Source of the DNA: Thysanoteuthis rhombus
Taxonomy: Eukaryota > Mollusca > Cephalopoda > Oegopsida > Thysanoteuthidae
Direction of reading: 5' to 3'
Assembly (NCBI GenBank): GCA_963457665.1
Contig: OY735220.1
Span: 33,300,969-33,364,968 of the forward strand
DNA length: 64,000 bases
The translations under genes and the position numbers were made by a program. A model generated the notes under the pieces. That model saw only the letters and a list, made by a program, of their open reading frames with translations, searched no databases and had not been told where the DNA came from. Shown piece by piece: positions 3,474 through 62,150 of this stretch (position 1 is the stretch's first letter; every line of letters begins with the position of its first letter).

Positions 3474-3919
3474 TTAAATGAATGTGTGGATATGTACCTG
3501 AGGTATTTTTCCCTGAATTTTTGCATTCATATATTCTTTGTAATCTTTGAGTTTCTGAATGAACCGTTGACAGAATTCGTCATCGACATCCTGCAAAAGG
3601 TCAACATCTGGGATAAAGAAATGTCTAATATCCCTCGATTGCAATGCACAGATCATGGAATCTAAACTAAGAAATTGATACTCTGAAAGACCTCCAGGAT
3701 ATTCATATTCTGACATTGCTGGAGTTTTTTCAAAGAAATGTAAGCAGCTGGTTGTTATATGATATGAATTAAACTTACAGTCGATATCTTTCCGTACGAA
3801 TTGGAACATATGTTTTATAACTTGAATCATCATTTTTTCAAACTTGTCGCACTTGTCACGAATAATTTTCCTCTCGAATGTGGAAAAGCTAATCCGCCAT
3901 AATTCTTGCACTCCGTCAT
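3474..3919 (-). CDS. cGLR coding exon 4 (helical C-lobe) and stop
   Basis: Acceptor tgttttcttgtccag; the split codon gives Asp (KITDADDGVQELWRIS). It holds the Mab-21 C-lobe signature: LWRISFSTFERKII, FNSYHITTSCLHFFE, HFFIPDVDLL, then a terminal helix. It reads to a stop at 3474. A CAG|gtacat just before the end could be a donor, so the last few residues (after KIPQ) are uncertain. AATAAA on the minus strand follows the stop by three bases (3466-3471). Confidence 0.83.
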
Positions 3920-5178
3920 CTGGACAAGAAAACAAAGTTAACATTCAGATTTTAATTTTATTGTAAAAAAAAAAAAAAAAATTATTGTCTTTAAAAAAAA
4001 AAGAAAGGAAAGAAAAATTATTGATTTAAAAATTTGGATTCATTCAAGAAATATAAAGCCATATCTTAGAAACATCAAAATTATTTCCAGGTACATAGAA
4101 AATTTATTATTAAACGTAAATTAATCATTGGATTTTGTTAGAGGGGGTTTCAATCATTATGTATGATATAGTCAGACTATCGTGTAGATTCTATTCTGTG
4201 CAGTTATGGTAGCCACAGACAAAGGTAAAAAATGCTGGCCTGTGAAAATAAAAATTGAAGAATAGGAAAGTTGTAATATGCAGCGACATTTACAAATCTC
4301 ACATGGCAGACCATACTTGGTAGGAGTGGGATGGGCACAAGCCCTTATGGGATGGAGAGCAAATTATTGATAGGGAGAACAATAGGTGAATATGACACCT
4401 GAAGGAAGTGGTACATACTTTCTTCCGCGGAACTAATCATCTGACTGAGCATCGATATCATAAGGGACTTCTTGGGAAAAGCAAATAGATTATCCAATGC
4501 AAGGGAAACAACTTGGAAGTTGACACTGAAAACAACCAGGATTTACAAAAAATGGATATGACGTGTGCAGTCTAATCAAGCATGCACTCTAAAAAGTGAT
4601 TACATAATCTGGAACCAACAACAAAGTTCAAGTGGTACATGGATAAAATGTTGTGAAGAAATGAGTTTATAGATAAGGAAAATGATCTGACCATATCATA
4701 CATAATGATTGATCACTGTAAGAAGAGTGAAGAAATCAAAGATTGTTCAGAAAGTAATGTTGTATCTCTGGAGATGAAATAAAAACAGAAATTGAATGTA
4801 TGGCTATCACACATATCACATAACATTATGATTATTGGCAAGTATTCCTTAGTGTAATCATCATCAAAGATCTGCAGTTAATCAACACGACCATGGAGCA
4901 TCCTTCTGTGAGAACACATTTGATCATTAAGAGCATTCGCTCAATAAGAGCCACATTTCTACCCTTCTTAAAAAGAAAAAGCAAATGTTAAAAATGTTGC
5001 TTATTTTCTATGTTTCTTACTGTATTTGATGCTCCGACTAATCACCAAAAATGTTTTCATAACTTGAAAAAAAAAAATGCATATTGATATAACAGCTGTC
5101 AAGATGTAAAAATGTAATCTTCTTGAATAAAATTAATTAAAACTAAACAATTCTAATTCCATCAAACACCAAACACAA

Positions 5179-5238
<60 letters not shown>

Positions 5239-8200
5239 TGAATATAGAATATGAACAAATAACTCACCTGCATCAGTTATTTTAGGAACAACATAAATAG
5301 GACAACCCATCCTTTCCTCTTCTGTCAATTTCCTGGTTTTCCATTTCATATAAAATTCTGGAGGTTTTTGAACAAGCAAACATGGAACCAAGTCAATGTC
5401 TATAGATTTTCCAACATCAGGACAATGTGTAACAGTATAAGCAGGACTTTTGCTTTTATTTTGTTTTCTTTCTGAAGAAAAAGAATCAAGGACAGGAATG
5501 ACAATAATCAGTATAATTGAATGACAAACAAATAATGATTAGAAATAATAATTGTCTAATCGGATCACCATAGACCGACAAATGACCTAACCAAAGATTC
5601 TCATCTTTTTGAGAGTCTATGTCTATGAGTATGTCACCAGATGCTCCTGGTTACATATTCGGGCCTACAGCCTTGAAATTTTGCAAGATTTTTTTTTCCT
5701 CTCTCCAAAAAAGTGCTTATTTAAGTTTCTATTGTCATTTTGGGACCAGCGATGCCTGAATCTTGTGCTTCAAGATAATTTTACATAAAAGATCTTTTTT
5801 TAAAGATAACTTCAGACAAATGATCTATTTTTCAGATAATTTTAGATAATCTTTTAGATAATTAGTTCTGGTTCACACACAGGTTATGGTTATTCACTTA
5901 TGGGAGACATGGATATCATTTAAGGATTTACAATGAAAAATATCAATATATTTAAACGGGAACACAAAAGAAGCTGGCAATGATAATTATCTGTAGAGTT
6001 AGATTAAAAGCAAATAGTGAAGGAACATGATGGTAGTCAGTATAATTAAATGAACAAAAATAGGAATGATATCAGTATAATTAAATAAATACATTGTTTA
6101 TAAGATTCACTTCTTGTCAAAGTCTGACCCTAAAAATCACCCTGCTTCCTTCATGGAGATGTCCAGACTTGTCGTGAATCCAGTAGATTTTTTAAAAGCA
6201 AGAAAAATAGATCAAAAGTCACTGATTCTGAATAGTCAATTTGGAATATGAATTTGCTAAATGTGACACACATTCATTGTTAAGATATTTCTTGATCTTA
6301 CACTAAATTTTGTGAGCTTGCGTTTGGAAGATAGATATGGAAAATAGAATGCAAGAGTTGAGGTCAAATTCTAGCTGAGAGGCTGTTTATTTCTATTTGG
6401 TAAAGGCATGAATTTTCACCAAATATTACAAGAATTCTGATTTTAATATTTATGATGACCATCAGCAAAGCGGTGGGCCATAAACTTGTCATAATAAAAT
6501 TCTAGAAAATAGGTTCTTGAAAAAAAAAATCATTTCTCACTCAGTTGCGGGTTTCCTTTTAGGATTGTATCAAACATCTTGAAGACAATCTCTTTGAACT
6601 TTGATGGAGTCACTTCATCATTAGGACCCAAGATCTCTTGTAATTCCGGGGGCAAGATGTGTTTGTTCATTATGAAGACACGACAATAACAGGGATGTGA
6701 ACTGCACGGCTCAACGATGCATTCCACTTTGGTTGGACACAGAAGATAATCAAAGTCATAATTGTGTATTTCCTTCCAAAAGAGAAAAAGAAAGAAAAAC
6801 AGGTCTGGTTAGTCACTCATTAGAAACTGTCACATGATCAACGTCTTTAGGCAGTATGCTGTGTTAGGGGCGATTAATAAAAAAATTGGAAAAAAAGGAG
6901 TAATTTACTTCACACCCATTGTTGGGCCATGATCACTAAAAAAAATCTGAATTTCCAAAAGACAAGCATGAACGCAGACAGACAGAAATTAAGGGACTGA
7001 TTTATCATAAATTGAACCCCACTAAAAATCTGGAGGGGATTAAAAACAAAAAAAAAAAATGTTTTTTGTATACATGAGGAGTAAATCTGAAAATTTTCAG
7101 CCCTCTAGCTTCATTAGTGTGGCCTATATGCATGACAGGTACGTAGCCAACCAGACAAACTAAAAAAAATGAAGAAACCAATGTTGACTGTTCTGGCAAA
7201 TAAATAAGAAGAAAAAAATAATATAAGTAAAGGTATTTAGTTGAATCAAATCCAGACAATATAATAAAATACAAATACTCTTATTGAGTATCAATAACTA
7301 TTTATGACATCACTGATGTTTATAGACAAGCCTGGCTGCTTCAATGTCAAACTCCACTCTGACTGAAGCTTAAATATGAAGTTAACTAAGAAAATAACTT
7401 GTTAAGAAAAGTGTTGTCTGATCAAAAAATTCCAAAAGATTGTGTGATCGGAATGAATAAATTTCCTGAGGATGTCATTAAAAATTCAATTTCCTTGTCT
7501 CCCTTTCTCTACCTGGTTGTGAGTTGACACCACATGATGTCATGGCATCACTTTTTCTTTTCCCCACCCTTCTCAATATACTGTCTGTGATAATGAAGTT
7601 AACTCCCTAAGAGTTTGACAAAACCTTTAGATTTTCCAGAATATAAATGTTATTAAGAAACCAGTAAAAATAATGCCCCAAAAAGGTAAAAAAAAAAAAA
7701 AGCTATCAATAGAGACAGAACAGAGGAGGCTGACTGGCCAGATATTAAACATTTTAGTGGAATTTGGTTGCTTTATAAAAACTGACATGAAAATATTCTT
7801 TAAAAAGCCAAATTCACTCAAATATGTACCTAAAAACAAAAAACAAACATAATGATGCTATATCAATGATCGCGTCCAAATATATAATTCTGGATGCAAA
7901 AGTCATTCAAAATATATACTCAAAAACCAAAGGGAAAATAAAGGAATGATGATGATGATATCAATAACAGGTCTGGTTAGTCACTCAACAGAAACCATCA
8001 CAGGGCTGTAACAAATGATGGGGCAATGCCCCACAGCTCTGTCAAGGAGTGGTGCCTGGAAAAAAAAAAAAAAAAAAGTTCTCTTCCATGTAAAAATTTT
8101 CTGTACTCAAAAAAAATCCTGCTCATCATGTCAAAAATTTGTATACTGATGTAAGTACCTGAATCGGACAGGTCTCCAGATTTCATTTTTCAAAAATCTT

Positions 8201-10475
8201 AACTATCTTCCTATCCTTTCGATTCCGCCTCCAGTCATTTCAGCGCAACTTTGTTAGGAAAAATTTTTTTTTTTCCCCACATAGTATATTTATAGGAGGC
8301 CCCAATCAAGGAGTCTGTCCCCGGGGCCCTGACGGCTCAAGTTACAGCACTGTTCTGCTATTTCATCAGCTACCGCCTTTGAGCAATCCATGACAATCGA
8401 TTAGATGGTTAATGTGAATGTGGCAATTATTTTCACAGCAAGTCTGCTTTTAACACCAAGATGTCTGAAGAGAAAGGTGTTTGAGTTATGGTGACTTCCC
8501 TTATAACTGAATTATTTGGAGGTGAGGTAGTAAATGGACTGGGACAAATCCCTAAACTAGTTTTATTCACACCTTGAGACAATTTATAAAATGGAAAATT
8601 TTATGATCCCAACTGAGGTTTGCAAGTCATTGTAGTATCACACTATACCCAGCTTTGTCTGACACAAGGCCACAGAATTGGGGGGCACCAGTGAAGATCA
8701 AACTCACTAGAGCAGTAATGGTCGATGAGATAAACATGCTAAGCACTACTCAACCAATGCCAACCTGAAAGTGAAGTAATTAGTACAAACCCCTTCCCCT
8801 CCCTCATTTCATTGATTATAACTCTCAAAAAATGTATGACTGTCAGGTCATCCTTGACATCACATGACCGCTCATGGCACCTGGACATCAGGAGAATCAA
8901 GAGAGTTCAAGTTAGGGTGATCACCAGAAAATCCTCAAGTTTGGGTGACAACCAAGAAATCCCTTAAAAAAGTTTAATCAAAGACATATTTTATAGTGAG
9001 CTTGTCACTGAATCTAGACAGGAAGGTCTATTCTTTGTTACATAGACATTGGTGAATGAGATCAAAAGGCAGGAACATCAACCCAGATGGCAGGGAGGTT
9101 GCAGCCACTGACCACAGCAGATGGAGATCTGCCATCAAGACAGGTCACCAGAGAGCACAGACAGTTACAATAACTGTAATAGAGTTTGTCGCTTGAAAAT
9201 CGGATTATACAGCCATGCCAGTTGCAGCAGGTCAACCATAGGCCGATCCTTGATGCATACCCCATTATCTTCCGAGACAAAGTGAGGCCAACAACAAAGA
9301 CAGGTTTTATTGACATCCTGAGACAAATCATAAAAGGGAAACTTTTAATATCTTTTTTTTATGCCATCTCAAGTTGTACAAAGGTGATGCCTCTTCATCT
9401 ATCCCACTCTTTGAAGTCATTGAAATATCTCAATACACCCAAAATTCAAAGATAATGATGATAATAGTGGCTTGAAAATGTATTTTAAAAGTCCCAAATC
9501 AAAATGCTAGATTCATCCAAAATACATACCCCAAAGTGCAAATCACCTGAAATAAACACAAAAAAATATGCATCCAATATTAACACCCAAAAGCCACAAA
9601 AGATGATAATGATAATATGTTAATATTTCTATTATTGATCAACCATAGCCATGAAAGGTGGCAAAGGACTCGATCCTTTTTAATATGTGCATGTGTTTGT
9701 TTCTGAGCCCCAATGCTGCTTGCCATACTGGTTTGTCTAGACTTCAAAACTGGCATCAGTACTCAACTTGACCCCCCCCCCTCTGAAAATATTTTTATTT
9801 TTGGAAAAAAAGCTTTTTTGACCTTTTTGGAGCCCTATTTTGACATGTTTATATATAACATCCAGATTCCCCAGAATCTAGATGTTAGATATTTTTTTCT
9901 CAATCAGATGTTTTTATATGTTATTATTATTAAATAATTATCAGTGGCTTAAAATATAAAAAAAAATGCTAAAGCACAAAGCTAAAATCATTTTAAATAT
10001 AAACAGTAAATGCTTACACTCAAAATATAGACCAAAAGGACTAATGAAAACTTACCTGGGCTCCTGTAAAATAAGACCCAGTATCTTCTCTCACCCAGGA
10101 TAGGGACCAGTAAGCATTCAATTTTTTCAAAATTATTTCTATAACATTGTCAATTATGTCATCAGACCAAGACAATCCTTCAGTGTCTTTCTCAGAATCT
10201 TCACTTGTGTTTTCATCTTCACTTTTGTCCTTTTTACTTTCTTCATCATCTTGTTTTGTCGCATTCTTCAAATCTTCTCCATCATCTGCTTTTGACTGAC
10301 ATGTGTATTGATGCATAGATAAGCTTTCAAACTTCTTATGACAATATGGACAGGGCACCATTCCATTACCCTCGTCTGTGTCAGCTGACAAAGATGGCCT
10401 ATTTGTAGCATTCTGAGAATCTTCATCAGAGTTCTTACCTTTGCTTCTGTTCATTTTACTTTCTTGATGATCCAT
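3474..10475 (-). CDS. cGAS-like receptor (cGLR; Mab-21/nucleotidyltransferase family) with N-terminal C2HC zinc finger, 4 coding exons
   Basis: Predicted sensor enzyme that makes a cyclic dinucleotide on binding a nucleic-acid ligand. Exons 10475-10056, 6772-6541, 5471-5268 and 3919-3474 join in phase (1302 nt, 433 aa). Seen: zinc finger C42-x2-C45-x9-H55-x3-C59; acidic Lys/Glu/Ser linker 60-100; GS motif G133-S134; D146-F-D148; third acidic residue D244 in IDIDLVP; IYVVPK; LWRISFSTFERKII; FNSYHITT; HFFIPDVDLL. S134 to D146 is 12 residues, the same spacing as S213 to E225 in human cGAS. The zinc-ribbon insert of vertebrate cGAS is absent, as in many invertebrate cGLRs. All three catalytic acids are present, so activity is plausible. 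Ligand and product cannot be read from sequence. A non-catalytic Mab-21-like role is the alternative. Non-coding 5' exons may lie upstream. Confidence 0.85.
4150..4800 (+). other. Unassigned decayed sequence in cGLR intron 3
   Basis: GC content and codon-like texture are higher than in the flanks, but all frames are broken and no family is recognisable. Probably an old repeat. Confidence 0.25.
5183..5237. repeat. (TA)n microsatellite
   Basis: About 55 bp of uninterrupted TA in cGLR intron 3. Similar tracts: 28656-28682, 30540-30605 (interrupted), 32160-32175. Confidence 0.95.
5268..5471 (-). CDS. cGLR coding exon 3 (third catalytic Asp)
   Basis: Acceptor ttctttttcttcag, donor gtgagt, phase 1 at both ends. 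Contains SIDIDLVPCLLV, with D244 matching the third acidic residue of cGAS, then IYVVPK, matching FYLVPK in human cGAS. A (TA)n tract of about 55 bp lies about 30 bp into the following intron. Confidence 0.82.
5560..5905 (+). repeat. Dispersed repeat family D, copy 1
   Basis: The order tctatgtctatgagt, gcctacagccttgaaatttt, ttgggaccagcgatgcc, aatcttgtgct, agataattttagat is found in reverse complement at 26275-26575. Non-coding; no terminal structure identified. Confidence 0.7.
6541..6772 (-). CDS. cGLR coding exon 2 (DxD catalytic motif)
   Basis: Starts in phase 0 after a ctcttttggaag acceptor and ends in phase 1 before gtgaga. It begins EIHNYDFDYLLCPTKVECIV, carrying the two metal-binding Asp residues D146 and D148. 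The rest (about 150-217) fits the N-lobe helix region of the nucleotidyltransferase fold. Confidence 0.82.
6800..7030 (+). repeat. Dispersed repeat family A, copy 1
   Basis: Begins aacaggtctggttagtcact and continues with attagaaactgtcacatgat and a region around gggccatgatcact. Directly upstream of cGLR exon 2. A short fragment of its start recurs at 7968-8010. Confidence 0.65.
8560..9445. repeat. Locally duplicated segment flanking a LINE remnant
   Basis: The 8560-8650 block (gttttattcacaccttgaga, caatttataaaatgg) recurs in diverged form at 9303-9440 (gttttattgacatcctgaga, caaatcataaaaggg). Confidence 0.5.
9075..9240 (+). mobile_element. Non-LTR retrotransposon (LINE) C-terminal remnant
   Basis: The plus strand reads YCNRVCRLKIGLYSHASCSR (with one frame change), the CxxC...GLxSHxRxC knuckle that ends the ORF2 of several LINE groups. 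Preceded by a Gln/Arg-rich stretch. Clade not determined. Confidence 0.5.
10056..10475 (-). CDS. cGLR coding exon 1 (zinc finger, acidic linker, GS motif)
   Basis: Encodes residues 1-140, from MDHQESKMNR to GSYFTGAQ, and ends at a CAG|gtaagt donor in phase 0. The ATG has G at +4. A possible acceptor (atatcag) lies a few bases upstream, so this may be the second exon of the mRNA. The C2HC finger is at residues 42-59, and the helix at about 101-120 corresponds to the spine helix of the family. Confidence 0.85.
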
Positions 10476-24366: not shown

Positions 24367-24689
24367 TTATTGTTCTGCTTTGGCTTGCTGTTTTGCATAG
24401 AGTCTTAGAATAACAGACAATTGTCTTGATAGGCCACTCACTTCTGTTTTGAGCAGTCCATGTGACAACTCTTCTTCAACATAGTCATGCAAGACCCTAT
24501 TTCTAGGTAGATAAGAATCAGCATCCAGCACTCCTTTCTCGGCTGTGTGACAGAAGGGCCAGCTGAGCAGTAACATTGTAACCAAATGGACATCATCCAC
24601 AATGTGTGCTGCGTCGTGTCCTTGAAGGTCTTCTGAATTTGATATTTTCCGACAGGTATGGCAAAACGTTTTTACTGTTTGTTCTTGAA
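24367..24689 (-). CDS. Phytochelatin synthase terminal exon
   Basis: Acceptor gtattttgcag; the split codon gives Val, then [16 protein letters not shown]. It includes [20 protein letters not shown] and ends AKQQAKAEQ-stop. AATAAA overlaps the stop codon (24366-24371 on the complement). A hAT MITE ends 34 bp beyond the stop, so any longer 3' UTR would run into it. Confidence 0.75.
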
Positions 24690-27600
24690 CTGCAAAATAC
24701 AAAAACATATTCACCACTTTTTTTTACATGTAAAAAGAAATAAAAGTGTTACACTCTTCTACACAAAGGCATAACAGATACCAGCAAAATATTAATAAAA
24801 AAACTGATTCACAAATTGCTTTGACCTTTTTATTGTTACTTAAAACATTTTAGAACATTAATTTTAGGGGGGGAAAATATACAGATTGTAAATACATTAA
24901 TACATCATAATAGCCTTAAAAATTTGTGGTGATCTAATAAACATCATAATTTAAAAAAAAATCATTTACATCTGTTAATAGCACTATATATTACTGTAAG
25001 TCTATTCCATAGTCCCACCAATCTATTGCTAAAAAAGAGTTTTCTAATATTTAATCTACTTTTATTTACCTCTACTGCATATGGGTGATATCTCAGTTCC
25101 TTACACTCCCTTCTACTACAGAATACATTATTCTAAACTGTGTATAATCTAACTTTTTAAATAAGTCTAAAGAAATATTTTTTTCAAAGTTTCTCCCAGG
25201 GTTGCCAATTTAGATGATTTTTTTTTATTTGTTTTTTAAAAGTTGTGTATCCAGTGTTAACAATTAATTAAATTTTTTTACTGTTTCAAAGTTCACTGTT
25301 GCCTACTGAAATTTTAGAAAAAAATTCCTTTCAAACTTGAAAATGACTTCCAGAATCAAAAAATTGAAGAATCATAAATTGACAACCCTGGTTTCTCGCT
25401 GCATGAAATAAATGAATATAGACGGCTAGAAATTCTTGTAGAGTCAATGCCAAAAATTGATCTCTTTCATGAAGTAATTCCATTTACTTCATCAAAAAAT
25501 GATTGATAAACAAAAGAAAATATACCAATTTTTGTTCAAACAATTCAATCTCTTTTTCTCCATCTTTAGTGTTGACACGATGTTTCAGTTGATTCATCCT
25601 ACGGCCATCTTCAAGTATATAATGTGATACCCATAAGAGAATAGAGTCTCTTTCATCAGTCTCTTTCTTGAAAAAGACTCTTTCCCAACAAATACTACAT
25701 ATTACACCCGAAGAAGGCCAGTGCATGAATTGGCTGGAATGTTGTGTCACATCAAAGATAGAAAGGGGATATTAAATAGGAAGAAAATATGCTCACCATC
25801 TTTTTCTAGTTTCATGATATCCCTAACAAAGAGGAATAATTTGGTGGCTTCAAGTTCTTGCAGCAATTTCTGCATGGCACAACCATATTCCTTGTATTCT
25901 TCAACCAAGTCACAAGGGCATTCCTGTTTCAAGACATGAAACTCGAGAAGTTTGTTTTCGGGATTCAAATCAGCAGTGAGAGACAATAACTTGTGGACTG
26001 TGTTAATAATGGCTGCTTCTGTCTGTTCAGCATCAACCTTCTCTCTCAGGAAATCTTGCCATTTCTTCAAAAATAGCAAAACGTCAGCAGGTAATTGTGA
26101 ATGAAGCATTAATGTGAGAGCTGAAGAAATTCGGAACAAGAGGAGAGGACTAGAATTGGCTTTTCGACTCAGCATTATGTAACCTCGAGGCAAACCTGAA
26201 CAACAAAGAAAACACAATATTAGCAAGAAAGGAAAATTTTTGATACAAACTTTACCTCTTATATTAATAACTGAATCACCATAGCCCGCATGCATACCAG
26301 AACTTGTAATCTAAAAAATCATCTAAAAAAAGTTGATCTTTTATCCAAAATTATCTAAAAAAAAATACCAGCACAAGATTTGGACATTGTTGGTCCCAAA
26401 TGACCACATAGGCCCAGGAGAGCACTTTTTGAATGAACAAAAACAAAATTTTTAGGTGCTGATTGGTGTACTCATGCAAATTTTCAAGGCTGTAGCCCTA
26501 AAAATGTGACCAGAAGTGCCTGGAGACACACACACACACACATATAGACATAGAGACAAATGAGCAAAGAAAGAAGAATCTGTAGCCAACTTGATTGGTT
26601 GAGCAATTTTAGGGGCTGAGATGATTCAATATATAAAATTTAAATTCTAAATCAAAGGTAATAACTTCATATCAAAGTTACTCCCATTGCACACATGAGC
26701 AATTGAAAGAAAAAAAAAATTATTATTCAATTCACAAGTTCCACTGTGTTCAGGAGTGGTATGAAGCAGTTCATGAATTTAAGAGTCAAGACAGAATAAT
26801 CCACTGCTAGAAGAACAGGCTGTAAAAGTGAAACCTGTTCTGTGCTGATAAATATGAGGCCACTTGCATGCTTTGGCCTTTCAAGAAGGAATTTATTTAA
26901 TGATCTGCTTTCTCTGAGATGATCAACTACAAGAAATTTCACAAGGTTTTGACAGAAGGTTCAGATTATATCAAATTTGAGTTATTGACTTGTTTACTGG
27001 TAAATTAAAAAGTATTCACAGAGCACATGCCTCTGTCAACGCAATTGTCAATAAGACATAGGGGAAGTAATAGTGTACAGACCCGACTAGAAATTGCCCA
27101 CCTTTCCAAAAATTTTCATTGAAATTCTTTGAGAACTTTTGGAGATATTGTGTGGTGTGGACAGATAGCTATGGCGTAGGGAAAGTTTGGTTTTGTGTCA
27201 GTTGTTTCCACTTTTATCCACTCACCTGTATCTATGTCCAGTGCATTCATGGCTTCTAGAAGGTGTGGTAGCTTGACCCAGTGGGGTGGGTATTTGAAGC
27301 GAGCAGTGTCCATGATGAGGACTAAATCCTCTCCTGGGTGATAGCCTGCGATTGGCGAGAAATGTCCATCTCCTGTTTGGTTGAGGACCTTTCGAGAGTA
27401 GGTGGCTATGAGAAATACATCATCACATTGGGTGTATGCTTTTATGACCTGAAACACCAAAATATCATCTTTACAGTGAATATTATAGAGTTGAATATCC
27501 TATGTAAAATATTTGGCATTTATAGATTGCTTATTGTATTCTTCCATCAAAGCTTCTCAAAGTGAGGATTGCAACCCCTTAGGTTGGTTGATTAAAGATG

Positions 27601-30559
27601 ATGCGTGTGGAAGAGGATGGTGGTCGCAGAGATGTTTGGAAATGTTCTCCCGAAGAATAACCATGTATATAATTATTTTTTCATACCTAAATAAAAATAG
27701 GCTTTTGGTGTTCACTGTAAAGTGGCCTACTGTTATTCACTAATTTTTAACTGCGACAAAAGTTGAGAGTTCTCAGAATGGGGAGAATTCTTATTAAGAC
27801 TAATTTTCAAATTGTTTAACAGTGTTTGTAAAGAATTTAATGACCTGAAGAGAGATAAACATTGTTTTTTGAGGGGTTTTTTCAAATCAGTCCATACATA
27901 AATTTTGTTTTTGTCACATTTTAGTAATTTATCTTAAAAAAGTAATTTAATATTTTCATGATAAACACCATAAATCTTATAGATTTTGAACAAATAAGTA
28001 GCAATTTTTTTTACAATATTTTTACTGTTATTTGTTTCTGTTTAGTTACAGTTAGATTACAACTGAAGACTAATATTTAGTCATAACATCTGTTGTTTTT
28101 ATGACTGATTGAGAGGTTGCTAAAAAATTTCACCTTATCAAAAGGAGTTACGAGTGAAAAAAATTGAGAAGCCTAGATAGCAGGGCAGAGTAACTTCTCT
28201 AGCCTTGGGAGGATACTGTCTAGAACAACTCCAGAAAATATTTCTGTGTGAGCTCAATTGGTCACTACCTCCCCCCAAACCAACATGACCATACAATATC
28301 AAGGGAAGAGTTAGTCCAGCAGTAGACCTGATGATGATATCATGTATACATATATATAGTGCTTGGATAGTATAATGGTTAGCATGTCTACCTCACACAC
28401 AGAAGGTCACAGGTTCGATTGCTGGTAGCAAGCATAGAGCATGGAAAATATTTCATAGGACAAATTTCCTTGTGCACTCAGCAGCTAATTGAATACACAC
28501 CACGCTGTGTATGTATTGACCATCTTATAATCATGTGCTTCCCACAATGAAGTGAGCAAGATGTCAGACCAACATGGCAGATTATGGCTAACTGAAACCT
28601 CAACTGGGTTACACATTCTGCAACATAGTGGTGGAAGAGTTCATAATAATAATGATTATATATATATATATATATATATACATATATCAGAATAGTACAA
28701 GTAAAATGGACCATACATAAGGGTCTAGGAGACATATGTGACACTAGGGGGCCAGGAGTCCCCCGTGTCCTGAAAATTACGAAAATTACTATGGCTGTTA
28801 CTAAAAATTACTATGGTTATTACCAGTAATTACTATTGTTATTACAAAAGGAGTTGTCTGTGTTAAAGGGGATAATGTTTTTCGAGATGTCATAGGAAGT
28901 TGGGTCACCTGTGCTTTTTCAATCTGGTGTCATCTGTCAAGGCCTGGGTTGCAAAAACAAATACTTTTGGAAAAAGGTTTTGTTCCCGATTCGATGACCA
29001 TGTCATGGGAAGTTGAGTTATCTGTACTTTTTCAATCTAGTGTCATCTGTCAAGTCCTGGGTTTGAAAACAAAGCCAGATATAAGGGTCAGTGTTTGGGG
29101 TCTAGAGAGAGAGAGTAAAAGCTTATGAAAGAAAAGTTATTTGCAGAAACCTTGGGAGAGGGGGAGACTAATTTATGATATTGAACAGACCTGCGTCGCG
29201 AGATGAATGAGGGTCAATGTTTTGGGTTTTTCCGGAAAGGTCGAGATGGCAGGAGAGGGAGAGATAAGGGAAGTCGGTTACAAGAGATACAGTGTCGATA
29301 TCAAGTGCTTAAATAAGGGAGATTTTCGTAACAAGCAGTCAGAGTAAAATTTGGGTTTGGAGAAGAGAGTCGTTGCTAGCTCTCTCTCTCGTGTCAGCCG
29401 TCCGCCCTTAGTGACCGTCAACCGCTGAGTCAGAGTAAAATTTGGGTTTGGAGAAGAGAGTCGTTGCCAGCTCTCTCTCTCGTGTCAGCCGTCCGCCCTT
29501 AGTGACCGTCAACCGCTGAGTGAGAGTAAAATTTGGGTTTGGAGAAGAGAGTCGTTGCCAGCTCTCTCCCTCGTGTCAGCCGTCCGCCCTTGGTTACCGT
29601 CAACCGCTGAGTGAGAGTAAAATTTGGGTTTGGAGAAGAGAGTTGTTGCCAGCTCTCTCTCTCGTGTCAGCCGTCCGCCCTTAGTGACCGTCAACCACTG
29701 CTACCATTCAGTAGACTACCGTTCGTGACATGAGAGACCAGTCGTCATTTTGACTTAGATAATAATCGGCCTCCTCTCTTTTCAACTGCGAATAGGCATT
29801 TCCCGTCTCCAGAGATATTGATAATCAATATTCTATATAAAACATATAAACGAAATTCCGTTTTGTTGCCTTCTTTTACTAACCCAGAACCACGGCTGGG
29901 CTTGGTATAGTTTGTGGGACCACACCCCCAACAGCAAAACCCCACACATACATAAAAGAAGAAGTAGGTATGGATAGGGTAAGAAAAGTTTGTAACATTA
30001 ACTATATGTAAGCAGGGGTCCAGACTGTATGGGTAAGGCTATAGTGGATATGTATATCTAGGGGTTTCATGGTGCATATTCATGGGCCAAGATGGAAGTA
30101 CAGTATTAGTTGCTGGTATAAAGATAGTGAGTAAGTCAGCATAGATTAACTACGAGTGAGAAGATTATGTGGTTAGAGCTTGGAGTGCTTTGGGTTGTCA
30201 AGTCAGTTAGGAGAGAGAGTTTCAAGTTTATTAGTCCACATATATTCATGTAATTCCAGAATTTTAGTCGTGTTGGAAGGTGTATGTTTTCAATGATGAT
30301 AAATCTAGCATCTGTGCCAGAATTGTAGCCAGGGGTATGGGAGTGTTGTTCTACAGGGAGTAGGCTGGGATGATTGGATGATTTGATTCTGTGTCTAAAG
30401 TTATTAAGTCTAATGTTGAATTGCCACTCCAATTTACCTATATATTGCAATTTGCATTCAGAACAGGTAGGTGACATTTTTGCAGTTGAAATTATGGTAG
30501 ATTTAGACACTCTTGATTAGTGGTAGAGCTGGTGAAAGTTATATATATACATATATAGT

Positions 30560-30603
<44 letters not shown>

Positions 30604-33099
30604 TACATAAAAATCAAAGTCCATACGTCTGCTCCACTTTGTAGGCTACACTTTTGTGCGCAAGAAGCTGAAATTTTACACAGTGTTACATCTTATCATG
30701 GCGGAGGCCATAGGAGTTTCCTAAGGTTTTACAGGTTTATTTGATTTGGAATGACACTATAAATTCAAACTAAACTGACTTCCCCATTCTGGGAGTTTTT
30801 ACCTCAACAGCTTCACCTACTTCAGTTGATTCATCCCCAGCTAGACACAAGACATGCCAGGCAGACAAAAAAACAAACATGTGCGCCTAAGATTTCTATC
30901 CATGTAAGTAAATGATATTTTTTGAACTAAGTAATAACTTTTAAATGTACATTTTTTATGCATGTATATTTTTTTTTTCAGAAAAACTGGTTTTTGTCGG
31001 TATTCTTTCAGCATTGAATTTATTTAAATATATTTTTCTTCTCTAAACATTGTTGCTGTTTTCAAGAAAAGATGTATTTATAATGAAATATTTCCAACGG
31101 GACTTACAATACCAAAATAGAAACATTTACTAAAATACTTTGGCCAGGTGGATTTTATAGTATTTTTGATCTTAAAAATAAATCCATTCTTATTTCATAT
31201 TTCCTATGCATAAAGTGAGATTTTCCTATTTCATCTTGAAGAAAAAAAAGTAAGATTTACTTTCTAATTTTACTACTTAGACTGTAGAAAAGAATGATTT
31301 CTTGGAGAAAATGAGATTATTAGCTGTTTGTGTTTTATTAAAGTAGTACCATCCGTGGTTCATTTACTTCAAGAGCCCCCCCCCCTAAATAATTCCCCTC
31401 CATACGACCTAGTCTGTCATGTTTTTCTTTGTATGTTCTTTGTAATTTCTTTTCATCTTCGTCATCAGTTTTGTATTTTGTATTGCAATAGACATAGGAA
31501 ACTTTTCACACACATTTCAGAATTTTTAGAGAATAAAATTTAATTTTACATCTTATATTTATCCATTTCTGATTACATTTTTGCAACTATTCAAAAGAGT
31601 AAAATTGCGCAATTTTATGATATGATGTTAGTAGAGAGGAAAAGGAAGAATAAAGGTAGAGAGAAAATAATAAGTATTAGCAAATGCTAATAGGAGTGAG
31701 TGCGTCTGCGTATGTTAAGGACCCTTCTTAGACTGACCAACACAAAAAATAGATAGAAAGTAAAAATACGAGTGTAAGCAGGATAATTAGCAGGTTTAAG
31801 ATCTATGAACTTCCTCCTGATTGGTTGTTTCTGAAAATGGCGGGATTTGGAAGGTCACCGTCCATTACAGCAGTTGGTATTTTGTCTTGGAGAGAAGGAT
31901 GAGAGAGAAAGAAAGGGAGACAGTCTTTCAAGGTCAATATATTGGCAATAATTTGGGTATGGAGCTTTACTTTTGGCCAATCTTGAATATGATGCTTAAT
32001 CAACACAATATAGAAAGTCATGCAAAATATTTGTAGGTATGAATTCCGTCTGAGGTTTTGTTAGCAAATTAATTGAAGCAATAATGTAGGTAACTAATAT
32101 AATTGCATTTATCTAAAGAATATTTAAAAAAAAAAAGGGCAATGCCAGGTATTTCTGCTAGTATATATATATATATTTTCTGTATTTTCTGGTTTTTAAG
32201 ATGAATAATCTTCCAAGAAATACCCAGAATTAGTTGAGCTCAATTTTAGAAAAACATAGTCAAGTACTTTTTCTTTAAGTGTCACCCAATAAGCAATGTA
32301 ATATTTACCCTTGAAGACATACTAGATTTTCAAGGTTCAAGAAAAAGTTGTGTTTTTAATGCAAAGGAATGCATTATATATATATATACATATATCAGAT
32401 GTTAACAGTCTATTAAAAGAACAAAAAAAATTATTGTATTCCACCAAGTATAGTCAGCATTTTTTAAAGAAAATTTTCCAGCTAAAATAACCAAGGGTGT
32501 ATCACAAATGGAATCACAATTGTATACACGGGATAATATAACTGAACAAAAATTGAATGGGATGGAATATCTATGGTGGCAGGTTATAAATGGTGAGATA
32601 CAGTATACTGCATAGATATTCTGTTTCTTATAACCTCTAATTGAAGAATAATAGCTATTTTACAGGAAAAATAAATTACCTCTCTGAACTGATCCACTGA
32701 CATATCAGCAATTCTTGGTCGCACGACAATCGTATGGAGAGAATTACATTCAGCAATGCAGGTAAATTGTTCCAGAGTAATACCATTATTTTTGACAACG
32801 TCCAAAGGAATACAACAGTCAAGCATGTTCTCATGGTACCATCGCCAGGGTCGCTTCCACACGACCCCCGGATCAACATCTAAAGCAGTGAGCACCATTA
32901 CCAAAGTGGATAGGCCACAGAAGGCTGGTTCGTCTTGGGTACGAAACTGAGACGCTAGTTTGAAATAACAGTTCATGTGGCCGGAAGCCATCGCCTCAGC
33001 AAATATCAATTTGCCTTTCTCTGAAGAGAAAGAAATGCAGCTTGAAGGGAGAACACGTCGATAATATTCAACATCAGGTTTCAACTGTGCCAACTTCAT
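24367..33099 (-). CDS. Phytochelatin synthase (glutathione gamma-glutamylcysteinyltransferase), 4 coding exons
   Basis: Papain-fold peptidase-like enzyme (EC 2.3.2.15 family) that transfers gamma-Glu-Cys between glutathione molecules to build metal-binding phytochelatins, and can also process glutathione conjugates. Exons 33099-32680, 27448-27226, 26195-25797 and 24689-24367 join in phase (1365 nt, 454 aa). Seen: [20 protein letters not shown] with nucleophile C61; [28 protein letters not shown] with H169; [14 protein letters not shown] with D187. Distances C61-H169 (108) and H169-D187 (18) compare with 106 and 18 in Arabidopsis PCS1. The C-terminal part (216-454) is poorly conserved, as usual, and ends in a Cys-containing stretch. 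Cytosolic role inferred. The enzyme looks intact. Confidence 0.92.
25500..25735 (-). other. Exon-like open stretch inside the phytochelatin synthase gene, unplaced
   Basis: The minus strand reads a protein-like stretch containing [19 protein letters not shown] and [17 protein letters not shown]. It lies between two confirmed exons on the coding strand. Candidate acceptors (ccag, tgtag, ttttcaag) do not give the two-base start that the phase 1 donor at 25797 needs, and gtatat after EQKL gives phase 0. It may be an alternative exon, a decayed exon or chance. Confidence 0.25.
25797..26195 (-). CDS. Phytochelatin synthase exon 3
   Basis: The acceptor after gttgttcag gives a split Gly ([14 protein letters not shown]), matching the GRRRGFMLISRP region of plant enzymes. 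The rest is helical and variable and includes [16 protein letters not shown]. Ends in phase 1 at gtgagc. Confidence 0.83.
26275..26575 (-). repeat. Dispersed repeat family D, copy 2
   Basis: Reverse complement of the 5560-5905 repeat, ending in a (CA)n tract. It lies in the phytochelatin synthase intron just upstream of the 26195 exon. A partial third copy may be at 42600-42720 (minus), matched only at the caattttcaagtctgtag end. Confidence 0.65.
27226..27448 (-). CDS. Phytochelatin synthase exon with catalytic His and Asp
   Basis: Phase 0 start after tttggtgtttcag, phase 1 end before gtgagt. Encodes residues 141-214 with [12 protein letters not shown] (H169) and [16 protein letters not shown] (D187), the strongest family signature in the gene. 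Confidence 0.93.
28361..28690 (+). mobile_element. tRNA(Val)-derived SINE with (TA)n tail
   Basis: 28361-28435 reads as a decayed tRNA-Val(CAC): A box tagtataatggttagcatg, anticodon loop ctcacac, variable aggtc, B box ggttcgatt. The anticodon and T stems have mismatches, so it is not a working tRNA. A 230-bp unrelated body and a (TA)n tail follow, the usual SINE plan. Confidence 0.7.
28737..29946 (+). mobile_element. Solo LTR-like fossil (gypsy-like, tentative)
   Basis: Begins TGTGACACTAGGGGGCC and ends AAAACCCCACA, so the termini are TGTG...CACA. CATA directly precedes (28733-28736) and follows (29947-29950), fitting a 4-bp target duplication. A TATA-like box (tatataaaac) lies near 29834, and a 91-bp tandem array sits inside. 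No internal coding region or partner LTR in the window. The matching target copies suggest modest age. Confidence 0.5.
29341..29700 (+). repeat. 91-bp tandem repeat, almost four units
   Basis: agagtaaaatttgggtttgg recurs at 29341, 29432, 29523 and 29614, exactly 91 bp apart. Units contain ctctctctctcgtgtcagcc, ccgtccgcccttagtgaccg and are over 95% alike. Upstream, 28885-29075 holds a looser pair of repeats about 115 bp apart (gtcatctgtcaagg/tcctgggtt). Confidence 0.95.
30136..30500 (-). mobile_element. Penelope-like retroelement fragment with GIY-YIG endonuclease
   Basis: The minus frame reads [60 protein letters not shown]. This matches the Cys-containing YIG motif, NxR..H, EQH and FxIIE blocks of the Penelope endonuclease. 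Only this C-terminal domain remains; the reverse transcriptase is not seen. Confidence 0.75.
31680..32100. other. Non-coding stretch with promoter-like words, function unknown
   Basis: Around 31815-31860 are attggttg and ggcgggatttgg, close together. It lies inside the phytochelatin synthase locus, between its candidate promoter and its later exons. No TATA box or exon found. Confidence 0.2.
32680..33099 (-). CDS. Phytochelatin synthase exon with catalytic Cys
   Basis: Acceptor tatttgtttatcacag at 33107; the exon runs 33106-32680 and its first ATG is at 33099, giving [18 protein letters not shown]. It ends in phase 0 at GAG|gtaatt. It carries C61 ([10 protein letters not shown]) and the [12 protein letters not shown] block. 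Because the frame is open from the acceptor to the ATG (S-P before Met), an in-frame upstream exon is possible. Confidence 0.92.
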
Positions 33100-35189
33100 T
33101 GGGGACCTGTGATAAACAAATACAAAATCATAACAAGCTTTTTTTTTCACAAGTAAAAAAGAAATGATTACTTATACAGGAATACCCAGAATAGTGCAGT
33201 TTTGATTAGTGCATCTTTTCATGTAGTATAGCTAAAGTATTGCATTGAAAATTAATGTAACCAAGTATAAGCTGGAAAAAAATTTAATTATCATAAGATC
33301 TTGAATAGTGTGGCTTCAAACAGAACAGAAAATTTTGGAACAAATTAACCACACAAATCAAGGTATACCTGTATTTTATTATTTACATATAATGATCCAG
33401 ATACTGCTGAAAAATGAACTGCTTGTATCTATTTTGTATAATCACAGATTCAGTTCAAAGAGAATAGAAGTGATCCTGAATAACATTATTGTTAATTTGA
33501 TTAAACAATAAAGTAATGGGCAGACCATATTTCATGTATTTTCTTGAATCATATTGTGTATCATACAATTAAACATTGAAGGAATTTCCTTTTTCTATCC
33601 ATTTCACTATTTCAAGTAGAATGTTTAATTTTAAAATGGGTAATCCTTGGTTATTTAATTCTAAAAGATTACAGGGTCGACGGGGGTGGTATTAGTTGAT
33701 TTTTTGATTGTCAAAAACATTTTTTTTTTAACATTAAGGCTCTTATTTATAAAATGGCATACAATACAAAAAAATTAGCTATTTTCAAAGTTGGAAAAAC
33801 TAGGCCTGAAAAATCTACCCTCAACCCATTATACCATGAGGGTTCAGGTGGAATGAGTAGCAATTTAGTCAATTTTTCTTTTATTAAAAATAAAATTCAA
33901 AATTGAATAAAGTTTCATTTTCCAGTTCAATTTTTAAAATTCTATTGTAACTTAAAACTATTCTTTATTGAATCATTTATAGCTACTTATTGTTTAGAGT
34001 CTTTTACAAGTACTTCTCTGGCATAGAGCACTGGCCACAACTGCCACATGTTGCAGGAAATTCAATCACACTAACAATGTCTTGTATTGGTAATCAGGAA
34101 CATCTTCATGCTTTGGTTATTTCTATGTTCTGTATTTTATAAGTAGAACTTTAACTGTGAAATATGATGCCTCGTACTCCATTATAACAAATATAACATC
34201 AGCATGTAGTTCTCCTGATTCAATATGGTCTTCATGTATGCCTTCATCCGGGTTATACTTTTTATTCCCTTCTCCCCTTTTAGCGTTCCCTCCGACCTGT
34301 CAAAGGGAGATAGCTTGGTTGGTCAAATGAAGACATTTTTCATCTAATTTCGATTAATCATAAATCAGTCATTAATTTTCATGACTACTTTTTACCATCA
34401 GCTACCCCCCCCCCCCGTCCTCAAAAATAAGTTACGATAAAACCACTTCCCTTCCACAGATTCAATCTGTGGAGGTGAAGTTTTGTAGAAGTAGATAAAA
34501 CATTTATTTCCTTTTTCAAATTTCTATTCATGTCTTCAGTGCATAAAAAATATTACCTTGGGTAGATTTTGAGATCTGAAAATGAATGAAAGGAAAAAGA
34601 AAAAAAATGTCACTAAATGGCTTGAAAAGAAGTTATGATAAAACCACTTCCCTTCCATTGAATATCTTCATAAGACAAACTTAGTTACCTCCCTTGGACT
34701 GGCAGAAGGGAACACTAGATGGAAGAATTGACAGATCACAGGTATCAGACGTTTTTATTGACATCTTCAGCTATTTGTTAGAAGACCTTGGTCGTTGCAA
34801 TGACAAATGTGAAGAAAATACCAATTCAAAAAGTTACCCATTCTACCTGGGTTAGTTGTTCCATCATATCTCAAATAATTGTAAATTGAACTAAATGTCC
34901 ATTATAGCATAAATAGCCAACATCATTGATGCAATAAATTTTGTTATAAGTAAATAACTTTTTTTTAGTTATACAGAAGTTTTTGGAGACAAAATTTCAC
35001 AGGTTAAAATTTCAATGTTTTTTTCATAAATTTTAGGATTTTTTGGCATATTTTTGTTATAAGTTATTCATTATTTCATGAATATCTGAAGAACCTACAG
35101 GAAAAAAGCTTTCCAACAGTGTTTTCATTATTTTATATTAGTTAATAACAATCTTTCCAAAGCTTGATTTTTTTTCCTCACAATCCACC

Positions 35190-41300: not shown

Positions 41301-43088
41301 ATTGATCACCCCTTTATCTGAATTTTTATACTGATCATTCCCAACATGGCATGCTGCCAAAAGACATTGGTTATGTGACAGTTTCTATTGAGTGACTAAA
41401 AATTAGTATTTAGAGCAAACACACAGATATGTTCACACAAAATTACTAGCTAGCTCACCCTGAGAGAAACAGAATTATAGACAAGATCTCATTCCAGTTG
41501 CTAGTGTCTCTTTCTGTGAAGCCACATAAACTGGGATTCAATACAACTATTATGTCTGCATGTGGCATATAAAAAGCTGAAAAACAATTTGATCCTTTGT
41601 CAGTCACCACCAGATATCTTCCCCCTGCAAAATTCTGCCCGGCGCTGTTTGTTGTAACTAAACTCTGCTCATTTAATGGCATTAAAGTGAACATCTTACA
41701 CAAGTGCAGAAAAATTGAAGGGTAACATTAAGTTCCCAAGTATAATAAGCAGCCCTGAGTTTTAGTTTCAAAACTCTTGAGTGCATATTATAAACAAATA
41801 ATTATAGTACATGCCATATCTCTGCATGCCCTTCACTTCCACCACTGGTTGCAACAAAAGTTCTGGGCATAAGAAGAAAGTTTGCAAGAAGAAAGTTCAT
41901 AGTTTATAAGTCCAGTTGAAAAAAGAATTAAATAGTTTTGCAAGTTTTTATGTTACTCATTTGGTGGGAAGGGCAAGATCTCCAGCTAGGAAGGCATAAA
42001 TTGAGGCTTTGGACCCAATAAGAGATCATGGATTTGAATTATATAGTTATTAAATTATACCTTGTTTGAAAATCATGAATTTGAATAATTCAAACAACTG
42101 GGAGGATTTTGCAGAAGATGGGTGAATTATAGAAAAAATTTGATTGATAGATGGGAATCGGATCATTATTATCAGTTTGAGTGCAAATGCAGACACCAGA
42201 ATATAATTATAATCATTATTTTGAATTTTCAAAAACTTATGGGCTAAAAACATGCTCCAGAACATACAGAAAATTTGATGGTCATAGCTCTATCCTCGAG
42301 TTATGTAATGACTGATAGATAAGCTGATGTTAATTGGATTATAGTATGGAAAAATAAACAATACTCACCCTAACAGTCAATAATTGAACAACCATAGTGT
42401 CAAAATTTGAAGTCATGTAAAGAAATTCCCCCAAAGAATAAATATAGTCAGAATGAATTCTATTTATGATATCAATGGCATTTTTCACTGGAAAACATCT
42501 GAAATAGAGTTAAAAAAAAGATCAAGATACTGGAGATTCTTAGTGTTATTAATAAACCCATTTAAATAAGGTCTATTGGCGAGCTTCTTCTTGCAAAAAA
42601 CCCACAACAACAGATTTTCAGCAGGGGCCAAATGGAATACTGATGCCAATTTTCAAGTCTGTAGACAAAATGGCATGGCCAGGAGTGCTGGAACAAACAA
42701 ACAAACACAAATAAAAAAAAAAGGAAAAGGATAGTACCCTTTGCCATCTATGATGGCTACAGCAGTTCAATTTTTGTAAATAAGCTAATATTTTAATTCA
42801 TTGTAATAGAATAAGTAATATTTTATTGAGGTAAATATTACTAATTTTATCATAGTAAATTAAATGTGACTTTTATCCTCAACACTTATTTCATAAAAAT
42901 ATTACTTATTTTATCACTGTAGATTAAAAGAATTTTAAAAAATACTTTGAAAAGAAAAGAAAGATATCACTCTTTTTATTGTCATAAAGCAAATAAATTA
43001 AGATATGACTTTCAATATCAAAAATTAAATGAGTTAAAATACTACTCATTTCATTAAAACTAGGGCAGTGTCTGATCCAATGAGACAT
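35190..43088 (-). CDS. Unrecognised 266-aa protein, 6 coding exons
   Basis: Not recognised. Six minus-strand exons (43088-43046, 42487-42369, 41694-41459, 41081-41001, 40278-40142, 35374-35190) all have GT/AG ends and agreeing phases, 801 nt in total. The protein starts MSHWIRHCPSFNEMMKNAID; the middle part (GGRYLVVTDKGSNCFSAFYM, then ADIIVVLNPSLCGF) looks like an alpha/beta fold with a buried hydrophobic strand, followed by WNEILSIILFLSG and LLSPLVQLVLMINSH. The segment after about residue 190 has hydrophobic helices (RILTLVYWTHSMILQI, LCMNFGAYVTFVAI) that could be membrane segments, and a basic C-terminal region. IVVLNP followed by a helix recalls the C-terminal domain of MSS51/ZMYND15 proteins, but this is too weak to name. 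The last exon is the least certain, being separated by a 4.8-kb intron. Confidence 0.55.
36800..37020 (-). CDS. Possible 5' coding exon of the phytochelatin synthase gene
   Basis: An ORF starting MSVTPRLIALQREYTMKF, with a six-Gln run, reads to CACTG|gtaatc in phase 2. The synthase exon at 33106 begins with exactly one base before an open frame, so joining gives ...RCFHW-SP-MKLAQ in frame. The surrounding 36.9-37.15 kb is richer in CpG than its flanks, as a promoter might be. Against it: phase agreement has a one-in-three chance, and the exon would sit inside the last intron of the unknown gene on the same strand. cDNA is needed to decide. Confidence 0.35.
37150..37820. other. No gene seen
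   Basis: AT-rich intron sequence of the unknown gene, without recognisable elements. Confidence 0.4.
38030..39530 (+). repeat. Degenerate satellite-like repeat
   Basis: The motif (c)cttgattttgacccctaaaa, then gtgaaaaaaa(t), recurs more than 15 times at irregular spacing of about 45-65 bp, interrupted by a pyrimidine-rich tract at 39160-39310. Open frames on both strands here are products of the repeat. Confidence 0.85.
40142..40278 (-). CDS. Unknown gene, exon 5
   Basis: Donor CACA|gtaagt. Reads RSTITTELNKKASAFLQK then RAFNVSFKRRSLFRILTL. The acceptor actgcaag at 40279 is the one that fits the phase of exon 4; a second acceptor (gacctag) 40 bases upstream does not. Confidence 0.5.
41001..41081 (-). 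CDS. Unknown gene, exon 4
   Basis: An 81-nt exon: acceptor gtttaaattttcag, donor gtaagt. Reads LLSPLVQLVLMINSHIASQT then DLKTGE in the frame required by exon 3, ending in phase 2. Confidence 0.6.
41140..41395 (-). repeat. Dispersed repeat family A, copy 3
   Basis: Reverse complement of the 6800 and 61912 copies: the right end reads gtgacagtttctattgagtg. It lies between exons 3 and 4 of the unknown gene. Confidence 0.65.
41459..41694 (-). CDS. Unknown gene, exon 3
   Basis: Acceptor caatttttctgcacttgtgtaag, donor CAGG|gtgagc, phases 0 and 2. Carries the most structured part of the protein: NFAGGRYLVVTDKGSNCFSA and MPHADIIVVLNPSLCGFTER. An alternative in-phase acceptor (gagcag) lies 39 bases into the exon. 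Confidence 0.65.
42369..42487 (-). CDS. Unknown gene, exon 2
   Basis: Acceptor gttttccag, donor AGG|gtgagt. Encodes KNAIDIINRIHSDYIYSLGE and ends VVQLLTVR in phase 0. Composition and ends are typical of a real exon. Confidence 0.6.
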
Positions 43089-46814: not shown

Positions 46815-46916
46815 AATTAATCCCCCAACGTTATTAACCACCTACCAACACACTGATCTGAACTCCCCGAGTGATAGCTACATTGTAAGTTCCGAAATTT
46901 GACACAAAGGTATCGC
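46815..46916 (+). other. 5' UTR part of the STPR gene's second exon
   Basis: The strong acceptor ttttttatctcgtttcag ends at 46814. From there to the ATG at 46917 there is an in-frame stop (46875-46877), which fixes the ATG at 46917 as the first in-frame start. Confidence 0.55.
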
Positions 46917-47216
46917 ATGGAGAGAATGAGAAGATACAGACAAAGGTTGGGAGAAGAGCAGAAGCGCAAGATGATGGAACAAGATCGGCAACGACTCCGG
47001 AGAAAAAGGGCTTCTATGAGTGAAGAAGAACGGGCAGTGTACAGGCAGCAAGAAAGAGAAAGGCAGCGAATACGAAGAGCAAAAATGGATGAAGCCCAAC
47101 GACAACGGTTGCGACAAACAGTTCGAGAGAAAAGAAGAACAATGACACAAGAACAATTACAAAATATGAGAGAAGCTGAGAGAAGAAGACAAGAACAATG
47201 CAGACTTAGAAAACTG
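46917..47216 (+). CDS. STPR repeat exon
   Basis: One hundred codons starting MERMRRYRQRLGEEQKRKMM. About four 23-25-residue units, each with a basic helix preceded by M-(S/D/T)-(E/Q)-E. Ends at AAACTG|gtttgt in phase 0. Without splicing the frame stops four codons later. Confidence 0.78.
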
Positions 47217-57670: not shown

Positions 57671-57802
57671 TCTTTTCTTTTTCTTTTCTTTTCTTCCTCT
57701 CAATTTTAAAAAAAATCTTTAACCTAATATAAATGGGTACTCCAGTAAGTATAGAATATATAAGTAAATGAGGTAAAGATGAAAGCAGTTTATAGTAGAT
57801 AC

Positions 57803-58180
57803 AATATCACCTCTGAAAGCCATAGCACCAATCAGTATTTATGTTCAGCTGCTTTTTCACCTTTCAACTTAATCTTTGATAAAAGAAATATAAAATGTTC
57901 TGGGCAAAAGACAACCAATTGTTTCTCAATTAGAAATATTAAAGCTGACAAATGTAAACCGATTCATCTCTGATATGTCCTTTTGCAAATGGTGAGAAAT
58001 TGACCTAAGAATCAGCCTCGTTTGTCAGTGACACTTAGTCATGAGGTTAATGGGCCAGCAGTTGATTTGCAGAAATGTTCAAGAGAAAATGACTGATCTA
58101 GATTTGAGTCCTAATTCCAATCAAATGAATAAATCTGAAGTGTCCTGTGTTGAAAGTTAGTTCATTTCAAAGGAGAAAAC
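57803..58180 (+). pseudogene. Decayed partial copy of the STPR gene's large exon
   Basis: About 1 kb past the gene's stop, the sequence aligns with nt 54062-54455 of the large exon: cctctgaaagccatag, atgttcagttgc/ctgc, aaaagacaaccaatt, agtcatgaggttaa, attccaatcaaa and catttcaaaggA blocks occur in the same order. The copy has in-frame stops, small deletions and no flanking parts of the exon, so it is a non-coding segmental duplicate. Divergence looks like 20-25% by eye. Confidence 0.85.
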
Positions 58181-61354: not shown

Positions 61355-61911
61355 CCTAAGTTATAGTCTGCTTTCTTACTTATATTTTCAATTTTCTTAC
61401 CTAGAGAATTGATTTAAAAAAGGAAAATGATATAGTGATATATAAGAATGAAAAAAATTGCTCTTTCTACACCCACTCGCAGTTCGCACGCACTTTCTCT
61501 ATCCTTCCTTATTCAAATTTGGTCTGAACAAAACCTTTCCATATCCATAGAACTAGTGATTTTCACTGTCAAAGAGATATTAAAAAGCTGTAATACAATT
61601 GCTTTCATAAGCATTTCTTCAGATTTATAAAGCTGACCAATTTATTCAGATTTTCCAATTGAACTTGAAGTATTTCAAATCTTTTTAAAGAGAGCCATTA
61701 ATATTCAAAGCTTTGTTTGGACTATCGAACTCCTCCTTTGTGTTGTTGATAATGTTACAAGTGTTTCAACCAATCCATTCTTCCGCCTCTTTTCAGATGT
61801 ATGATTTGTATGGAATCGGTGTCATGCTGACTCGTATCATCTTTGTATCTTTTGTTGCTGGCATGAATTGATTTGATCAGTATATTAGTGACCATCTTAT
61901 ATCGTAAAAAA

Positions 61912-62150
61912 ACAGGTTTGGTTAGTCACTCACTAGAAACCATCATTTGACCAACATCTCTTGGCAGCATGCCATTTTGGGGGTAATCAATAAAAAAAAT
62001 TTAAAAAGGGGGTGATAAATGAATAAATTCCTTCCGTAACCTTTTCTTGGGTGATGATCACTATAAAAGCCTGCATTGAAAAAACAAACAAGCCTAAATG
62101 CTGCTGGACACAAACTAAGGGACCAATTTACATTGATATGTGGTGCAAGA
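61912..62150 (+). repeat. Dispersed repeat family A, copy 4
   Basis: Starts acaggtttggttagtcactc, as at 6800, and follows it through caacatctcttggcagcatg and the gatcactataaaag region. Confidence 0.65.

Follow-up and report, generated by a model that had tools for sequence, protein, structure and literature searches.

A predicted cGAS-like receptor with three catalytic acids and an acidic core in the cephalopod Thysanoteuthis rhombus

Introduction

The cGAS-like receptors (cGLRs) form a superfamily which has been described as almost entirely metazoan (PMC10732462), and by 2023 a survey listed 3,020 of them in 583 species, 87% being without added domains and more than 200 occurring in some bivalve genomes (PMC9980059). 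According to the same survey, cGLRs sensing double-stranded DNA (dsDNA) or double-stranded RNA (dsRNA) have an isoelectric point (pI) above 8.5, whereas acidic cGLRs are proposed to answer other, perhaps positively charged, ligands (PMC9980059). Here we describe a four-exon gene on the minus strand of a stretch of 64,000 nucleotides (nt) from Thysanoteuthis rhombus (contig OY735220.1, positions 33,300,969 to 33,364,968; the whole stretch is called the window), whose product is, by homology, a cGLR of the Mab-21/cGLR family. Judged from the sequence, the gene is real and intact-looking and the enzyme probably active; we consider it likely that the protein makes a cyclic dinucleotide by means of its residues D146, D148 and D244, in response to a trigger other than naked dsDNA or dsRNA acting on the core by itself.

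Family assignment and gene structure

The protein passes the Pfam cut-off (24.1 bits in each case) for both domains of the family, Mab-21 with 41.3 bits, restricted to amino acids (aa) 178-306 and thus outside the part holding the GS and D-F-D motifs, and Mab-21_C with 37.1 bits (aa 314-410); this is the outcome of the profile comparison proposed in a preliminary description of the locus, which had been made from the letters alone. Among 42 matches at E <= 10 in a phmmer search against the PDB, the best was 8gjw, entitled 'cGAS-like receptor 1', which we take to be Cv-cGLR1 of Crassostrea virginica, and a single alignment (aa 109-395) spans all three exon joins. The cGAS chains rank after it, the best being 7ftn (E 1.1e-11, aa 100-413), and MAB21L1 (5eog) is far weaker (E 0.021). 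With these Pfam scores and an E value of 1.7e-16 for 8gjw across all joins, the family signal exceeds chance. The nucleotidyltransferase core and the C-terminal helix bundle, on which homology is judged in PMC9980059, are both recovered by the two Pfam domains and by the 8gjw and cGAS alignments.

The gene is composed of the following parts:

10475-10056, minus strand: exon 1, 420 nt, encoding aa 1-140 with the N-terminal tail, a possible C2HC finger, an acidic linker, the spine-helix region and the GS activation loop; donor GTAAGT
6772-6541, minus strand: exon 2, 232 nt, first part of the nucleotidyltransferase core according to the 8gjw alignment
5471-5268, minus strand: exon 3, 204 nt, second part of the nucleotidyltransferase core according to the 8gjw alignment
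3919-3474, minus strand: exon 4, 446 nt including the stop codon TAA, Mab-21_C helical lobe (Pfam Mab-21_C 40.8 bits for this exon alone)
3471-3466, minus strand: AATAAA directly past the stop codon, a possible polyadenylation signal by pattern only

The preliminary description had joined four separately found exons in phase into one cGLR, and this model stands, with the minus strand now added to it: the three introns (3283, 1069 and 1348 nt) are of the GT-AG type with 5' ends GTAAGT, GTGAGA and GTGAGT and AG at every 3' end, their phases match, and the spliced frame of 1302 nt runs unbroken through 433 codons to the TAA stop. Translation may start at any of three in-frame Met codons (aa 1, 8 or 39), and an additional 5' exon may exist.

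Taken singly, exons 2, 3 and 4 match 8gjw weakly (E 0.19, 0.16 and 0.016), at collinear positions of that chain (72-137, 151-205 and 228-333, respectively); 8gjw is the first match for exon 2 alone and for exon 3 alone, and exon 4 alone also matches the cGLR 8gjy (E 4e-6). In Pfam, exon 4 alone reaches the score given above, in agreement with the full helical C-lobe that had been claimed for this protein, exon 3 alone gives Mab-21 at 20.2 bits (under the cut-off), exon 2 alone gives nothing at E <= 1 and exon 1 alone has no Mab-21 match. The join of exons 1 and 2 is supported by the distance from the GS motif to the first acid, since it amounts to 11 residues here and in 8gjw.

A second cGLR was not found in these 64 kb: when the window was searched by tblastn with the 433-aa protein, the four known exons were recovered, and the strongest hit besides them had E 0.84. 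In the search for relatives elsewhere, 202 pattern matches in viral contigs and 169 in genome contigs were obtained, none of which was confirmed by tblastn at E <= 1e-3. That the gene belongs to an animal is supported by its introns and by the near restriction of the superfamily to metazoans (PMC10732462), and the GC content of the window (29 to 41% per 2 kb) and the best PDB match are no more than a hint of a mollusc-like source. A repeat some 100 nt long is dispersed over the window, at 6795-6894, at 61908-62007 and, in reverse, at 41310-41399, with 78-79% likeness between copies; one copy sits in intron 1 of the cGLR gene, and we regard the repeat as probably a mobile-element relic.

The active site

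The residues expected of a working enzyme lie in exons 1 to 4 as follows:

10074-10079, minus strand: Gly133-Ser134, activation-loop motif, from the spliced translation and the 8gjw alignments
6749-6757, minus strand: D146-F-D148, catalytic acids, from the translation and the alignments
5383-5403, minus strand: IDIDLVP (aa 241-247) with the third catalytic Asp, D244 (codon 5392-5394), from the translation and the alignments
3870-3899, minus strand: WRISFSTFER (aa 293-302), with R294, S296, S298 and E301 opposite R376, S378, S380 and E383 of human cGAS
3759-3767, minus strand: S337-Y338-H339, opposite S435-Y436-H437 of human cGAS

GS, D-F-D and a third Asp within IDIDLVP, as first proposed, were thus all found again, with the same GS-to-acid distance as in 8gjw. 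Outside the zinc ribbon, eleven positions of human cGAS, whose roles in the human enzyme are presumed here, were checked in the alignment, and nine are identical, the pairs K314/K407 and K321/K414 (this protein/human cGAS) being among them. Catalysis by this protein is predicted as likely, on the strength of its sequence; the nucleotide second messenger suggested in the preliminary description, like a role as immune sensor, is putative.

The vertebrate zinc ribbon, on the other hand, is missing from the alignment with human cGAS: with residue numbers that we take to be those of the ribbon region, H390, K394, C396 and C404 face gaps (four of the five checked positions), and C397 alone faces a Cys, C309. 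The ribbon of cGAS comprises residues 390-405 (PMC10855445), and the earlier statement that the insert is lacking agrees with this alignment.

Charge and the N-terminal segment

The core (aa 99-433) is acidic, with pI 5.97 and net charge -6, as is the whole protein (pI 5.30, net -17); the aligned 8gjw segment is, in contrast, basic (pI 9.24, net +12). These values were calculated by the Biopython method and the threshold of 8.5 in PMC9980059 by another, and both the core and the complete protein lie below that threshold. Such a core is unusual, yet precedented, as an active acidic cGLR with pI 5.0 is known from the coral Pocillopora (PMC9980059). Since the core is acidic, unlike the nucleic-acid-sensing cGLRs above 8.5, sensing of nucleic acid by the core alone appears doubtful.

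Ahead of the core lie two further elements:

10299-10352, minus strand: possible C2HC zinc finger, aa 42-59, C-x2-C-x9-H-x3-C, a weak candidate (zf-C2HC_2 below cut-off; single-sequence model)
10182-10295, minus strand: acidic linker, aa 61-98, net charge -9 by charge count

The candidate ligands of the possible finger are C42, C45, H55 and C59. Pfam zf-C2HC_2 scores 16.2 bits on the protein and 17.2 on exon 1 alone, under the curated cut-off of 27, and the spacer of the candidate is shorter than what we assume to be usual for zf-C2HC_2. A single-sequence model of exon 1, with a mean predicted local distance difference test (pLDDT) score of 57.4, shows residues 40-41 and 48-49 as short strands and residues 55-63 as a helix. 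Of the 20 PDB entries that Foldseek matched to this model at E <= 10, 17 have titles naming zinc fingers and one is RAD18 with ubiquitin; none is significant (best E 3.9). When the sequence of the N-terminal 100 aa was compared with the PDB, three matches came up, 2jrr (E 1.1), TRAF4 (2eod, E 0.3) and a RING finger protein Z (E 0.014), and these were treated as chance-level.

Proposed mechanism and rival explanations

Assignment as a nucleotidyltransferase comes from homology, and the following steps are drawn from characterised cGLRs. A ligand would dock in the groove behind the active site and open the caged nucleotidyltransferase, D146, D148 and D244 would hold metal ions while two nucleoside triphosphates are linked to give a cyclic dinucleotide, which a STING-type receptor would read. 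Given the acidity of the core, naked dsDNA or dsRNA binding to it unaided is the less likely trigger; more probable is another ligand, or a nucleic acid captured with help from the N-terminal segment. Which product would be made is not readable from the sequence; by analogy 2'3'-cyclic GMP-AMP (2'3'-cGAMP) or an isomer of cyclic UMP-AMP (cUA) would have precedents, as oyster cGLRs are reported to make 2'3'-cUA and those of other animals 2'3'-cGAMP or 3'3'-cUA (PMC9980059). The downstream step may well depend on the species, because in Aplysia Mab-21 proteins are reported while STING is reported absent (PMC9334734). A more specific version, in which a catalytically complete acidic cGLR responds to a non-nucleic-acid trigger (a protein or cationic signal), is gated or guided by its N-terminal zinc finger and acidic linker and gives a cyclic-dinucleotide output, is a rather improbable refinement; the finger would then possibly be of a ubiquitin-binding or TRAF-like C2HC sort.

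Several observations weigh against the mechanism outlined at the start of this section. Two of the eleven human cGAS positions are changed, K411 to Q318 and S434 to N336. When human cGAS is aligned by phmmer, its D319 stands opposite S240, four residues short of D244 by count on the alignment, and the third acid is paired only in the 8gjw alignments. The model of the exon 4 peptide (mean pLDDT 41.9) is too poor for judging the fold. Local basic stretches exist within the acidic protein (net +6 over aa 211-240 and net +4 over aa 301-330), so that a nucleic-acid ligand is conceivable, and for shrimp Mab21 proteins it is reported that cGAMP was undetected and that they act via IKK epsilon (PMC12928593). 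The published cGLR motif, h[QT]GS[X8-20][DE]h[DE]h[X50-90]h[DE]h with h for a hydrophobic residue (PMC9980059), is moreover missed in its literal form at two positions, with Tyr and Cys counted as h: Asp131 replaces the hydrophobic residue before TGS, and the second gap comprises 93 residues. The gap of the looser motif in the Methods of the same paper, [E/D]h[E/D]X50-90[E/D] (PMC9980059), is overrun too, its length being 95 residues here and 99 in 8gjw. We give the motif failure little weight, because the solved cGLR 8gjw likewise misses the literal motif, with Lys-Ser before GS and a gap of 97.

The foremost rival is an ordinary nucleic-acid-sensing cGLR in which, despite the acidic overall charge, local basic patches or the N-terminal finger capture dsRNA or dsDNA and so start cyclic dinucleotide synthesis, an explanation which we regard as possible, though not probable. 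K314 stands opposite K407 and R302 opposite K384 of human cGAS in the alignments, both being residues that we presume to belong to its basic groove; the replacement of K411 by Q318 and the acidity of core and full protein, set against the pI above 8.5 of characterised sensors, speak against this rival. The best PDB match is 8gjw, and Cv-cGLR1 is described as a dsDNA sensor (PMC9980059), just as the zinc-finger oyster protein CgcGAS is reported to bind dsDNA and poly(I:C) (PMC8218723). A signalling scaffold that keeps the fold, makes no nucleotide and acts through protein contacts would follow the precedent of the shrimp Mab21 proteins (PMC12928593), and the N-terminal finger and acidic linker could serve such contacts; the retention of three catalytic acids and most of the checked substrate-pocket residues, needless in an inactive scaffold, together with a MAB21L1 match far weaker than the enzyme matches, makes us think this unlikely. 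That the gene is a decayed or unexpressed copy within an expanded family, as might be imagined where some bivalves carry more than 200 cGLR proteins (PMC9980059), is very improbable, given the open frame of 433 codons, the three GT-AG introns with matching phases and the presence of the key residues. A catalytically competent cGLR with a trigger other than naked dsDNA or dsRNA on its core alone is the explanation which we prefer.

Other features of the window

Of 40 listed open reading frames (ORFs) with a length of 90 aa or more, the cGLR exons accounting for four, sixteen neighbouring ones were scanned with Pfam, and only two passed a cut-off:

27119-27499, minus strand: exon-like ORF, Pfam Phytochelatin 104.6 bits (cut-off 24.9)
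32587-33171, minus strand: exon-like ORF, Pfam Phytochelatin 165.9 bits (same cut-off)

By these matches the pair is assigned to an animal phytochelatin synthase gene. For two more ORFs further along the same (minus) strand, at 25750-26310 and 24370-24723, Pfam gave nothing above cut-off.

Two open frames and an array of repeats were also noted:

53123-56815, plus strand: open frame of 1230 aa, Ser/Lys-rich by eye; Pfam gave nothing at E <= 1
55810-56349: repeat units of 135 nt within the 1230-aa frame; a diverged partial copy is present at about 57800-58177
46878-47231, plus strand: open frame of 117 aa, by eye Arg/Glu/Gln-rich and repetitive in pattern; Pfam gave nothing at E <= 1
29337-29791: tandem array with 91-nt spacing, its first copies 96-97% alike

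The 117-aa frame resembles what we take to be STPR-type repeats, and is a candidate only. Neither a tRNA nor an Rfam match at gathering score was found in the window.

Comparison with known systems

An open question named for the field concerns cGLRs that are acidic and those whose ligand has yet to be identified (PMC9980059), and for it a natural protein combining a full active site, an acidic core and a possible finger would offer a test case for non-nucleic-acid ligands.

With 8gjw the protein shares the GS-to-acid spacing of 11 and the invariant elements GSY, FD, ID-DLVP, WRISF and SYH, whereas identity to the aligned segment is 26%, the first acid is E there and D here, and the basic character of 8gjw contrasts with the acidic core described above. 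Homology with human cGAS extends over the whole core (E 1.1e-11 with 7ftn), and nine of eleven non-ribbon positions are identical; the differences are the zinc ribbon present there and missing here, the acidic core, and a first catalytic acid which is D here and, as we assume, E225 in the human protein. MAB21L1 shares the superfamily fold, and differs in being a very weak match. Compared by description, CgcGAS of Crassostrea gigas likewise has Mab-21 and zinc fingers in one protein, with 590 aa and three consecutive fingers against 433 aa and one weak C2HC candidate here (PMC8218723). Because 3,020 cGLRs have been listed and a protein combining Mab-21 with zinc fingers has already been published as CgcGAS, the gene is one more member of a known immune family, adding one to more than 3,000, and what sets it apart is the acidic core together with the possible small zinc finger.

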